DNA from: Chitinophagaceae bacterium
Lineage (GTDB): Bacteria > Bacteroidota > Bacteroidia > Chitinophagales > Chitinophagaceae
Direction: 5' to 3'
Assembly: GCA_947374225.1 (NCBI GenBank)
Contig: CANCAY010000002.1
Location: 1-64,000 of the forward strand
Length of the DNA: 64,000 bases
In this document: piece after piece, positions 48,529-52,116 of the stretch
Layout of the letters: every line of letters starts with the position of its first letter
Numbering within the stretch: the stretch's first letter is position 1
Notes under the pieces: generated by a model
What the model was told of the DNA's origin: nothing
The model's input: only the letters and a program-made list of their open reading frames with translations
Databases searched by the model: none
Position numbers and translations under genes: made by a program

Positions 48529-49767
48529 TTATTTAATAAACGGGTCTGACCATCGCTTGTCTGTATACACTGCCGCGCCAGTTAGGGTTTTCATAAAAGC
48601 GGTTATGGCAGTTATTTCGTCTGCGGTCATGTTTAATTTTTGTCCAATATTATTGGGTCTTAATCTAGGATCTAAATTTGTATTGCGAACAATGCTAATA
48701 TTATTATAATGGCCTAATACATCTTGTATCGTTTTTAATTGACCCGTATGCATCATTGGGCTATTGGCAAGCCCATTTGGATTTATTAAATCTCTTAATG
48801 AGGCAGATCTTGTATTGGCAATATCTAATACAGTACTTCCTATAGTTCCAATTATTCCATTATTTCTAGTGTTGGAGTCGATATCAAACTCTGGGGCTCT
48901 ATGACAACCGTTACAACCAGCTCCACCACTAATTCTTACACTATTGCCGTCAAATACTGGCGGAGTGGAGAATAATGTTTTTCCGGTATTTTCTATGGTA
49001 GAATAATTAGGAAAATCTCTATTGTTATTGTTTACCTGAGCACGTCCAATATCATATTTAGAGTCGAATGACTGAATGCTACGTATAAATTGCGCCAATG
49101 ACTCTTGCAGTCTATTTTCAGTTATTAAAGTGTCTCCGTATGAAAATTTAAATAATTCCTTATAGTATCCAATGCCAGTTAATTTATTTAAAAGTGTTGA
49201 CATGGTGCCTCTTCCGTTTAATCCGCTAAAACCCATTTCAGCGTGATCCTGGATTGGCATGGTAGTTTGTATCTCAAGTGTCGCTGCTCTTTCATTCCAG
49301 AAAAATTTACTTTCTTCCGCAAATCTACTATTCACTAATCGCATTGCATGTCTAACCGTAAGGCCAGACTGTACACCGTCACTTTGAATTGCAGTGTCTC
49401 CAAAAGCAAATTTTTGATTATGACAACTACTACATGAAATTGTATTGTCTACACTTAAGTTTTTATCATAAAACAAGACCCTTCCTAGTGTTGCTTTAGC
49501 GTCTGTAATTGGATTTGCTGTCCCATTATCCTTTAAAATATAATTAGGCTTATTTTGATTTGCATAATTGAACAAACTTGTTGGATCAATATTAGTTCCA
49601 AATGCAATTTTTATATTGGCATAGGGGTCTACTGTTTTAGCAGTTTCTGTTACCACACTTGTTGTAGGACTTGTAGTTAGTGTACTTAAACTATCTGTTT
49701 TAGAGCAGCCAATTGCTATTACAGTGATTATTGCAGTGGAGATGATTGTTTTTGTAACGCTTCGCAT
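48529..49767 (-). CDS. diheme cytochrome c peroxidase-family protein
   Basis: CSSCH and CNGCH motifs; LGRVLFYDKNLSVDNTISCSSCHNQKFAFGD; SLRDLINPNGLANSPMMHTGQLKTI. Confidence 0.92.
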   Translation of the reverse strand: MRSVTKTIISTAIITVIAIGCSKTDSLSTLTTSPTTSVVTETAKTVDPYANIKIAFGTNIDPTSLFNYANQNKPNYILKDNGTANPITDAKATLGRVLFYDKNLSVDNTISCSSCHNQKFAFGDTAIQSDGVQSGLTVRHAMRLVNSRFAEESKFFWNERAATLEIQTTMPIQDHAEMGFSGLNGRGTMSTLLNKLTGIGYYKELFKFSYGDTLITENRLQESLAQFIRSIQSFDSKYDIGRAQVNNNNRDFPNYSTIENTGKTLFSTPPVFDGNSVRISGGAGCNGCHRAPEFDIDSNTRNNGIIGTIGSTVLDIANTRSASLRDLINPNGLANSPMMHTGQLKTIQDVLGHYNNISIVRNTNLDPRLRPNNIGQKLNMTADEITAITAFMKTLTGAAVYTDKRWSDPFIK

Positions 49768-49886: not shown

Positions 49887-50108
49887 CTAGTTCTGAATTG
49901 TATCCTTCTTGAATATATTAAACAATAGATACCCCATTAAGGCCCCGTAAAGGGTGCTATTAATTGGTTTTGAGGTAATCATACAAGTGCCACTGGCACA
50001 GCCAATAAATTTATAATACAAAAATCCAGCAAGGGCGCCTATCAAAGCTCCAATAATACTTAACTTATTTTTATTTATCCAGCTTGTTATATTGTTAGTT
50101 TGGATCAT
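49887..50108 (-). CDS. DUF6132-like small membrane protein
   Basis: GALIGALAGFLYYKFIGCASGTCMITSKPINSTLYGALMGYLLF. Confidence 0.75.
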   Translation of the reverse strand: MIQTNNITSWINKNKLSIIGALIGALAGFLYYKFIGCASGTCMITSKPINSTLYGALMGYLLFNIFKKDTIQN

Positions 50109-50125: not shown

Positions 50126-50434
50126 TTATCTAATTTTTCCAACAAGCACATTCCAAGGCCCGCCGTTATATACTTCCACACCAGCCCCTTTTAATATTGA
50201 TTTTGCCATACTACTTCTAGCGCCACTCTTGCATACTGTAATGATAGGCTTGCCTATTTTTTTAATAGCAGCAACTTCTCTTTGAATTCTGTCTAGTGGA
50301 ATATTCTTGGATCCTTGAATATGGCCACCATCAAATTCTTGTGGAGAACGAACGTCTATTATAACAGCACCATTCTCTTTCAATGCTTTGAAATCCACAC
50401 CTGGCCCGAAAAGTTTTTTTATAAAGCTGAACAT
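50126..50434 (-). CDS. rhodanese-like domain protein
   Basis: VIIDVRSPQEFDGGHIQGSKNIPLD, VCKSGARSSMA active site. Confidence 0.93.
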   Translation of the reverse strand: MFSFIKKLFGPGVDFKALKENGAVIIDVRSPQEFDGGHIQGSKNIPLDRIQREVAAIKKIGKPIITVCKSGARSSMAKSILKGAGVEVYNGGPWNVLVGKIR

Positions 50435-50435
50435 A

Positions 50436-50723
50436 TTAGTTATTATTTAAAATATTATTTAATGTAAAAATTCCACCTCCGTTATAGATTTCGGTTATGC
50501 CATTTTGCTGTAGAACGCTTGTAGCAATGCCACTTCTGCCACCACTTAAACAATATACAACAATAGGCTTCGGAAGTTCCGCTATCGTCTTAATTTGGGA
50601 CTCAATAGTATCTAGTGGAATATTTAATGCACCTTGAATATGGTCTTCTTCAAATTCCATCTGGCTTCTTACATCCAATAGGGTACCTTTTTTCTCTTTA
50701 ATTTGTTGAATTACTTTTTGCAT
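50436..50723 (-). CDS. rhodanese-like domain protein
   Basis: TLLDVRSQMEFEEDHIQGALNIPLD, YCLSGGRSGIA active site. Confidence 0.93.
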   Translation of the reverse strand: MQKVIQQIKEKKGTLLDVRSQMEFEEDHIQGALNIPLDTIESQIKTIAELPKPIVVYCLSGGRSGIATSVLQQNGITEIYNGGGIFTLNNILNNN

Positions 50724-50741: not shown

Positions 50742-50786
50742 CAAAATTCACTATTAATGAACATATTGACTGTGATATTTATCACA
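50742..50786 (-). promoter_or_regulatory. Crp/Fnr-type operator and -7 box for the rhodanese operon
   Basis: TGTGATA-TT-TATCACA perfect palindrome (50771-50786); GAATTTTG -7-like box on the minus strand (50749-50742); centre to box start 29.5 nt. Confidence 0.7.
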
Positions 50787-50848
50787 AAGTCCTTAGTTAG
50801 AAAACGTATCATATATGGAATCAATATATAATCAGCTAAAATAGATAA

Positions 50849-51499
50849 TTAGTCTTTTTTGATCCACTCGAATGAATTTCTATTCAGCACGATCCATTGG
50901 TGATTTTCCATCTTTTTTAACAACCTGCTAACCACTTCTCTTGAGGTATTCAAGTCGTTTGCAATTTCCTGATGGGTTAATTTAAGGGTATTCCCAAATT
51001 GTTTTACTTGCCTTTTGATATAAAATTCAAGGCGCTCATCCATATTTTTAAAGGCAGTTTCGTGGATGGTTTTTAGTAATTCTTCATACCTAAGTCGGTA
51101 GGTTCTTATTACAAAATAGTGCCAACTCTTATACTGGTTCAGCCATTTGTCCATAAATTCAATTGGGATAGCTAAGAAGCTTACATCAGTCACTGCTTTT
51201 GCCAATACTTGACTCTGCTCTAAATGATAATTACAAACCATGGTGACAGCACAAGCCTCCCCGGGATTTAAATGGTACATAAAGTATTCAGCCCCTTCTT
51301 CATTTTCTTGATATAATTTAACCGTGCCTTCCACCACCAACATAGTAGACTTAATATTTTGCCCCATTTTAAGCAAAGTGGCCCCTGCGGGTGCGGTTCT
51401 TAGTTCCGCATGTTCTATAATTGATTCGTATAATCCGTCTTCCCAATCGGGAAATAGTTGCTTAATTTGGTCTTTGTTTAACATAGCGATTAAATTCAT
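50849..51499 (-). CDS. Crp/Fnr-family transcriptional regulator (start 51499 or 51484; ORF opens at 51532)
   Basis: cNMP-fold domain; HTH HQEIANDLNTSREVVSRLLKKME; GEACAVTMVC. Confidence 0.93.
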   Translation of the reverse strand: MNLIAMLNKDQIKQLFPDWEDGLYESIIEHAELRTAPAGATLLKMGQNIKSTMLVVEGTVKLYQENEEGAEYFMYHLNPGEACAVTMVCNYHLEQSQVLAKAVTDVSFLAIPIEFMDKWLNQYKSWHYFVIRTYRLRYEELLKTIHETAFKNMDERLEFYIKRQVKQFGNTLKLTHQEIANDLNTSREVVSRLLKKMENHQWIVLNRNSFEWIKKD

Positions 51500-51517
51500 T
51501 GTGAAGATAATCTTAAA

Positions 51518-51562
51518 TGTAATAAAAGTCACATATTATAAAACAGCTAGGTTTTAACTTTG
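51518..51562 (+). promoter_or_regulatory. Crp/Fnr-type operator and -7 box for the 51577 operon
   Basis: TGTAA-TAAAAG-TCACA (51518-51533) and TAACTTTG (51555-51562); centre to box start 29.5 nt. Confidence 0.65.
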
Positions 51563-51576
51563 TAAAAAACTAAGCA

Positions 51577-51783
51577 ATGCAAAAATGGTATAATAAAATT
51601 GACTGGAGATTAGTTATGCGACTTGTAATGGCAGCTTCCATGGTTATTGTTGGATATCAAAGTAATGACTATATCCCAGCGGTATTTGGCATAGGTTTTG
51701 CTATATATGCAATCATTGGAGCTAAATATAAAATTGGATGTGGTTATAATGGATCCTGCGGCTATCCAGCACGAAAAAATTAA
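51577..51783 (+). CDS. small two-TM membrane protein (YgaP-TM/DUF2892-like)
   Basis: WRLVMRLVMAASMVIVGYQSNDYIPAVFGIGFAIYAIIGAKYKIGCGYNGSCGYP. Confidence 0.65.
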   Translation: MQKWYNKIDWRLVMRLVMAASMVIVGYQSNDYIPAVFGIGFAIYAIIGAKYKIGCGYNGSCGYPARKN

Positions 51784-51807: not shown

Positions 51808-52116
51808 ATGTCAACAACAGAAACCTTTGGTACCATTATTAATGGCGACAAGCCAGTATTGGTTGACTTTTTTGCCACTTGGTGTGGTCCTTGTAAAATG
51901 ATGCCGCCTATTTTAGAAAAAGTACATGAAAAATTGGGGGAGCAAGTACGCATTATTAAAATTGATGTAGATAAGAATCAAAAATTAGCTGCTGAATTAA
52001 ATGTGTCTAGTGTACCTACCTTAGCCATTTTTAAAAATGGGAAAATTCAGTGGAGACAACCTGGGGTGCAGCAAGCTAATGAACTAGTGGGTCTGCTTAA
52101 AAAATATATTGTTTAG
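51808..52116 (+). CDS. trxA: thioredoxin
   Basis: VLVDFFATWCGPCKMMPPILE, VSSVPTLAIFKNG. Confidence 0.95.
   Translation: MSTTETFGTIINGDKPVLVDFFATWCGPCKMMPPILEKVHEKLGEQVRIIKIDVDKNQKLAAELNVSSVPTLAIFKNGKIQWRQPGVQQANELVGLLKKYIV

Follow-up and report, generated by a model that had tools for sequence, protein, structure and literature searches.

Activation at class II promoters by Crp/Fnr proteins is an established mode of transcriptional control. In Escherichia coli, CRP contacts the bases of its operator through Arg180, Glu181 and Arg185 (PMC12531629). The regulator considered here resembles E. coli CRP and its class II promoters in its CRP fold, its RExxxR helix, its TGTGA-N6-TCACA operators and their predicted centre at −41.5, but it carries Val and Gln in place of the cAMP-coordinating Glu72 and Arg82, has cysteines instead, is predicted to control a sulfur regulon, and its operators in the window precede TAnnTTTG promoters of the σABfr type.

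In their targets, the closest described systems are FisR, BigR/SqrR and CstR, which control persulfide dioxygenase, rhodanese, YeeE-YedE and TauE-type genes and share with the present regulator a cysteine-based sensing that is here a prediction. CstR and SqrR are cysteine-based persulfide sensors of such genes, and both BigR and CstR act as repressors. All of these proteins belong to unrelated families, whereas the regulator described here is a predicted Crp/Fnr activator at −41.5. Cysteine-based persulfide sensing has been described for Acinetobacter baumannii FisR and BigR in an article that discusses the persulfide sensors (PMC7315123).

Crp/Fnr regulators of Bacteroidota include Porphyromonas gingivalis CrpPg, HcpR and PgRsp. 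CrpPg acts independently of cAMP, and trxA is lowered in its mutant (PMC12040651), while HcpR and PgRsp bind haem; CrpPg is likened to our regulator by description, and neither a sulfur regulon nor a −41.5 site rule was found in the accessible portions of the descriptions of the three proteins. Among solved structures, the best profile match is a putative Crp/Fnr regulator of Eubacterium rectale (PDB 3dv8, E 1.8e-26), which shares both cysteines with our regulator but comes from a different phylum, is about 21% identical by structure alignment, and is of unknown function. A literature search, in which subscription journals are thinly covered and absence is not proven, found no Bacteroidota Crp/Fnr persulfide regulator. 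Against the literature found, three things are provisionally new: a Crp/Fnr family of Bacteroidota that has a persulfide regulon, the exact distance from operator to box at TAnnTTTG promoters, and a specificity switch that arose naturally. The most far-reaching reading, with a probability of roughly 0.5, is that of class-wide, cysteine-switched Crp/Fnr activators of Bacteroidota that would sense persulfide and control a sulfide and persulfide detoxification regulon through class II operators exactly 21 nt from σABfr −7 boxes, with a natural Glu-to-Val specificity switch, from TGTGA to TGTAA, and a reversal of it.

The locus

The window, the whole 64,000-nt stretch of DNA that was analyzed, contains a Crp/Fnr regulator gene with an operator on either side. 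The features are as follows.

50771..50786, minus strand: operator A, TGTGATAAATATCACA, ahead of the rhodanese operon; retained in 8/8 orthologous loci
50742..50749, minus strand: −7 (TAnnTTTG-type) box A, GAATTTTG, 21 nt past operator A in 8/8 loci
51518..51533, plus strand: operator B, TGTAATAAAAGTCACA, ahead of the operon for the 68-aa membrane protein and thioredoxin; retained in 8/8 orthologous loci
51555..51562, plus strand: −7 box B, TAACTTTG, 21 nt past operator B in 8/8 loci
50795, minus strand: A/T-constrained position −58, base T, upstream of operator A
51509, plus strand: A/T-constrained position −58, base A, upstream of operator B
51502..51509, minus strand: putative −7 box of the regulator, TATCTTCA, conserved in orthologs; predicted promoter use
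50849..51484, minus strand: Crp/Fnr regulator, 211 aa (MLNKDQ...), with cNMP-binding fold, HTH (SREVVSR), Cys78 and Cys84 (Pfam, AF2/Foldseek)
50436..50723, minus strand: rhodanese 1, putative target of operator A (Pfam PF00581; conserved gene order)
50126..50434, minus strand: rhodanese 2 (Pfam PF00581; conserved gene order)
49887..50108, minus strand: small DUF6132 membrane protein, end of the rhodanese operon (Pfam PF19628; conserved gene order)
51577..51783, plus strand: 68-aa membrane protein, putative target of operator B (no Pfam family)
51808..52116, plus strand: thioredoxin (TIGR01068), in the operon behind operator B

A first-pass annotation of this DNA had proposed the two palindromes and their boxes, and all were confirmed at the coordinates it gave. 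Its centre-to-box distance of 29.5 nt was also correct, the palindrome and the 8-mer box being separated by exactly 21 nt (gap 21) at both promoters. The annotation had noted the lack of a TTTG −33 element, which has been described for Bacteroides (PMC7366714); this element was sought at both window promoters and none is present, its place being filled in each case by the 3′ half-site of the operator. Of 88 related sites only 44% have T as the first box base, and since this base is not constrained to T, box A (GAATTTTG) is normal for the promoter class. The equivalent of box B reads TACCTTTA in L012 and TACTTTTA in L014. Operator B also lies within the promoter region of the regulator, whose conserved start is the ATG at 51484 (MLNKDQ...); the start was placed there because an ATG further upstream does not keep the frame in L009. 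Downstream of the rhodanese operon lies a gene for a MauG/MbnH-like di-haem peroxidase (48529-49767 of the window), found likewise in L008, L009, L012, L013 and L014.

Conservation of the operator-to-box distance

Seven orthologous loci (L008-L014) were taken from other assemblies, with regulators 78-99.5% identical to that of the window; L008 and L009, being close to the window, contribute little, and the weight lies on L010-L014. The gene order 68-aa membrane protein, regulator, rhodanese is kept in all seven as far as the contigs reach, with thioredoxin behind the membrane protein in five, and with rhodanese 2 and DUF6132 following in all but L011, where the contig ends. The alignment of these loci, which the first-pass annotation had proposed as a check, retained both palindromes in 8/8 loci, and all 16 site instances, window included, stand exactly 21 nt from the 8-mer box. 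Palindrome columns average 0.95-0.97 identity versus 0.55-0.58 in the spacer (operator A, 0.97 versus 0.58). In divergent locus pairs the spacer is only 19-48% identical while the 21 nt are kept, so it is the distance that is preserved and not the sequence.

With the composite pattern TGTNAY-N4-RTNACA-N21-[N]AnnTTTG, the window yields 2 matches at one mismatch or fewer, versus 0.04 expected, and none of 100 shuffles reaches 2. The genome scan that had likewise been proposed as a check found the exact composite solely at these two places in the whole 2.46 Mb genome. At up to two mismatches, total matches in the host genome were no more numerous than those of the reversed-pattern control, and palindrome-only scans were also at background, equal to their control. 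Two-mismatch sites are thus not above background on number alone and need conservation or context, and only exact, conserved or context-supported matches in the host genome are used below.

More distant loci were picked by their regulator protein and not by site, and were scanned for a palindrome with at most 2 mismatches followed by a box with at most 1 mismatch at gaps of 8-38. Gap 21 accounts for 35 of 63 site-box pairs in 31 more distant loci, any other gap occurring at most 3 times, and for 20 of 32 in 27 loci outside the family; Markov resamples at gap 21 gave 0.3 and 0.05 for the two sets. By these criteria, no gap-21 site was found near 7 of the 31 and 12 of the 27 regulators, or near most of the roughly 40%-identical Glu regulators (named for residue 183, see below), which may be paralogs with other targets. 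Overall, the operator-to-promoter distance is fixed: gap 21 occurs at 65 Glu-type and 23 Val-type sites, and any other gap at 6 or fewer. A regulator-blind scan of 200 family genomes with TGTGAY-N4-RTCACA-N{8,38}-TANNTTTG gave 21 matches versus 5 for the reversed pattern, 13 of them at gap 21 and 18 at 20-22. Judging from these scans, the palindrome-box arrangement of the window is part of a much wider rule that holds in many Bacteroidota families.

Target genes

Genes directly behind gap-21 sites in the distant loci encode 52 proteins, in which TauE (20), Lactamase_B (18) and Rhodanese (10) domains are the most frequent; several of the metallo-beta-lactamase superfamily targets are fused to rhodanese, like persulfide dioxygenase-like proteins. 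The others include a sulphur transporter and a sulfate permease, a YgaP-like membrane protein, pyridine-nucleotide disulfide reductases and a thioredoxin-like protein; in two cases the protein is the regulator itself. Three YgaP-like proteins, one thioredoxin and one rhodanese came in addition from the regulator-blind scan, together with unrelated genes that may be controlled by other Crp proteins. In the host genome, weaker composite matches precede an MBL-rhodanese gene, a divergent TauE plus YeeE/YedE operon, a CoA-disulfide-reductase-like protein with rhodanese, an HMA protein, a TolC-type protein and a ccoN-like gene, and several of these sites recur in two close relatives.

Three further observations concern these sites. 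The class-II-like site before the ccoN-like cytochrome oxidase subunit I gene, TATGACTTTTGTCACA-N21-TATATTTG (L056, G000:C32:15323-15367), recurs in the relatives G200 and G201, and suggests a predicted link between the sulfur regulon and respiration. Between the operator and −7 box of the CoA-disulfide-reductase-like gene (L053, G000:C21:29310-29354, site at 1501-1545) lies a 26-bp inverted repeat, CAAAGGAACGCCATGGCGTTCCTTTG, which is also found in G200 and G201, its centre differing on both arms in G200 (CAATTG for CCATGG); it is perhaps a second operator. Genes for ArsR-type regulators lie directly behind TGTGA composite sites with gaps of 21 and 22 (L102, G107:C21:230842; L104, G062:C8:66331), a possible regulatory cascade.

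Proposed mechanism and effector

The regulator is probably a cAMP-independent Crp/Fnr class II activator of the flanking operons and of other sulfur genes, with binding and activation predicted from the sequence. A regulator dimer would bind TGTGAY-N4-RTCACA operators centred at −41.5, substituting for the −33 element of weak TAnnTTTG promoters, and would switch on both flanking operons, one encoding the rhodaneses and the other the 68-aa membrane protein and thioredoxin, as well as other sulfur genes in the host genome. Operator B, placed over the regulator's own promoter, would probably tune regulator expression, and Cys78 and Cys84 would most likely sense persulfide or related reactive sulfur species. 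The first-pass annotation had likewise proposed a local class II activator of both flanking operons, and that part of its reading gains support from a spacing that is invariant in 8 loci and dominant class-wide; the regulon, the two cysteines, the wide distribution and the probable control of the regulator's own gene it had missed.

The regulator has two cysteines only, Cys78 and Cys84 (P0001 positions 83 and 89), which both lie in the beta-roll segment; 106/106 homologs have the first and 105/106 the second. They align to what we take to be CRP residues 70 and 76, in the region of the cAMP phosphate-binding cassette, and in the alignment Val and Gln occupy the positions that we take to be those of CRP Glu72 and Arg82. 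Identity with cAMP-CRP was rejected, as Glu72 and Arg82 are missing and the NCBIfam CRP equivalog scores 51 bits against a cut-off of 266; identity with FNR (4Fe-4S) was rejected likewise, with no N-terminal cysteine cluster and 30 bits against 228. Both cAMP and 4Fe-4S sensing are unlikely because of the residues of the regulator. Two features of a cysteine-based persulfide sensor, a conserved cysteine pair and a regulon of persulfide and sulfide genes, are present. From targets and cysteines together, it appears somewhat probable that the conserved cysteines sense persulfide or related reactive sulfur species, although a structural role, or the sensing of a metal or a different oxidant, is possible, and haem or other thiol-reactive signals may be the effector.

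The same class II activator and regulon might answer to something other than persulfide, be it nitric oxide, haem, a metal or a further thiol oxidant, or might need no ligand and be controlled by regulator level. This alternative, which we hold tentatively as a lesser possibility, draws on precedents within the superfamily in Bacteroidota, namely the haem/NO sensor HcpR (PMC12750200), the haem-binding redox regulator PgRsp (PMC6955866) and the ligand-independent CrpPg with its effect on trxA (PMC12040651), and on the respiratory link suggested by the site before the ccoN-like gene. It fits less well with targets that across families are mostly sulfide and persulfide genes, and with the near-invariance of the regulator's only two cysteines.

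Activation or repression

The σA box TAnnTTTG of Flavobacterium psychrophilum has been mapped to −12 to −5 (PMC9723704). With this box position, which is that of another genus, the 16-mer at gap 21 would span −49 to −34 and be centred at −41.5, as is canonical for class II sites, with the transcription start sites of the window genes predicted accordingly from the boxes; the sites would thus be centred near −41, as the first-pass annotation had proposed. The base at −58, 9 nt upstream of the palindrome, is A or T in 84 of 88 gap-21 sites against a background of 0.67, with an uncorrected p of 5e-11 for a position that was picked after viewing all columns but whose A/T preference recurs in both operator classes. 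The two classes have A/T at 95% and 96% of their sites, versus 60% beside control palindromes without a box. A/T at this position would fit docking of the alpha-CTD upstream of a class II activator.

Alternatively, the palindromes could be repressor operators, with the regulator blocking the promoters until released by a signal. BigR and CstR, known persulfide regulators, are repressors, and at operator B the overlap with the regulator's own promoter has a spacing other than that of class II, the operator lying 8 nt (15-16 nt in L012-L014) from the conserved TATCTTCA-like box in the regulator direction. This placement weakly suggests repression of the regulator gene. Toward the thioredoxin operon, operator B stands at the class II distance, and in L019 and L021 a gap-21 site faces the regulator instead. 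A repressor does not need a spacing to the −7 box that is exact to one base, and the missing −33 element, the half-site in its place, the centre at −41.5 and the A/T constraint at −58 likewise argue against general repression, which we consider improbable.

Operator recognition

The regulator has the features of the Crp/Fnr superfamily (PF00027 and PF13545/PF00325 above cut-off), and its AF2 model (pLDDT 87.7) shows the CRP fold and matches CRP structures (Foldseek E about 1e-15). The host genome holds three apparently genuine Crp/Fnr genes, among which that of the window encodes the only RExxxR Crp protein found. A fourth HTH_Crp_2 match (L050) was dropped, being below the family cut-off and on a contig that reads as high-GC foreign sequence; this contig (G000:C72) is probably a contaminant.

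Residue 183 (window numbering, MLNK...), the equivalent of E. coli CRP Glu181, is Glu in 83 and Val in 23 of 106 homologs. With a test pattern neutral at the fourth operator base, G was present there in at least one half-site in 46/46 Glu loci with a gap-21 site and in 0/17 Val loci. On a FastTree tree, parsimony gives 3 changes at this residue; the covariation rests on about that number of evolutionary changes, and the counts, coming from related sequences, are not independent trials. One of the changes concerns L207, a Glu regulator that falls within the Val regulators (support 0.87 and 0.91); its operator, TGTGACTAAAGTCACT, is TGTGA again. Substitutions of Glu181 in E. coli CRP are classical mutants that alter recognition of position 7. 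The covariation ties the sites to this regulator family and points to the RExxxR Glu as the predicted determinant of the fourth base pair of TGTGA (CRP position 7). The RExxxR motif that the first-pass annotation had read in the helix was rightly interpreted, Glu183 covarying with the operator base that CRP Glu181 reads.

That another Crp/Fnr protein of the genome reads the palindromes, the neighboring regulator being incidental, is very unlikely: the genome does encode two candidates, the receiver-Crp fusions L047 and L048, but their recognition helix differs (GTATESLIRTL), and residue 183 and the operator base change together, reversal included. Chance palindromes beside A/T-rich promoters, although the genome is A/T-rich and single TGTGA-like palindromes with mismatches are common and equal to control, are refuted by the 16/16 conservation, the 0.04 composites expected in the window and the gap-21 enrichment in independent loci.

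Significance

No description of sulfide or persulfide sensing in Bacteroidota was found in the literature searched, and few activator rules are known for the unusual TAnnTTTG promoters. The finding offers a ready regulon, an exact operator-promoter grammar from which targets in many genomes can be predicted, and a pair of candidate sensor cysteines. The covariation of Glu/Val with the operator is a natural experiment in the joint change of a transcription factor and its sites.
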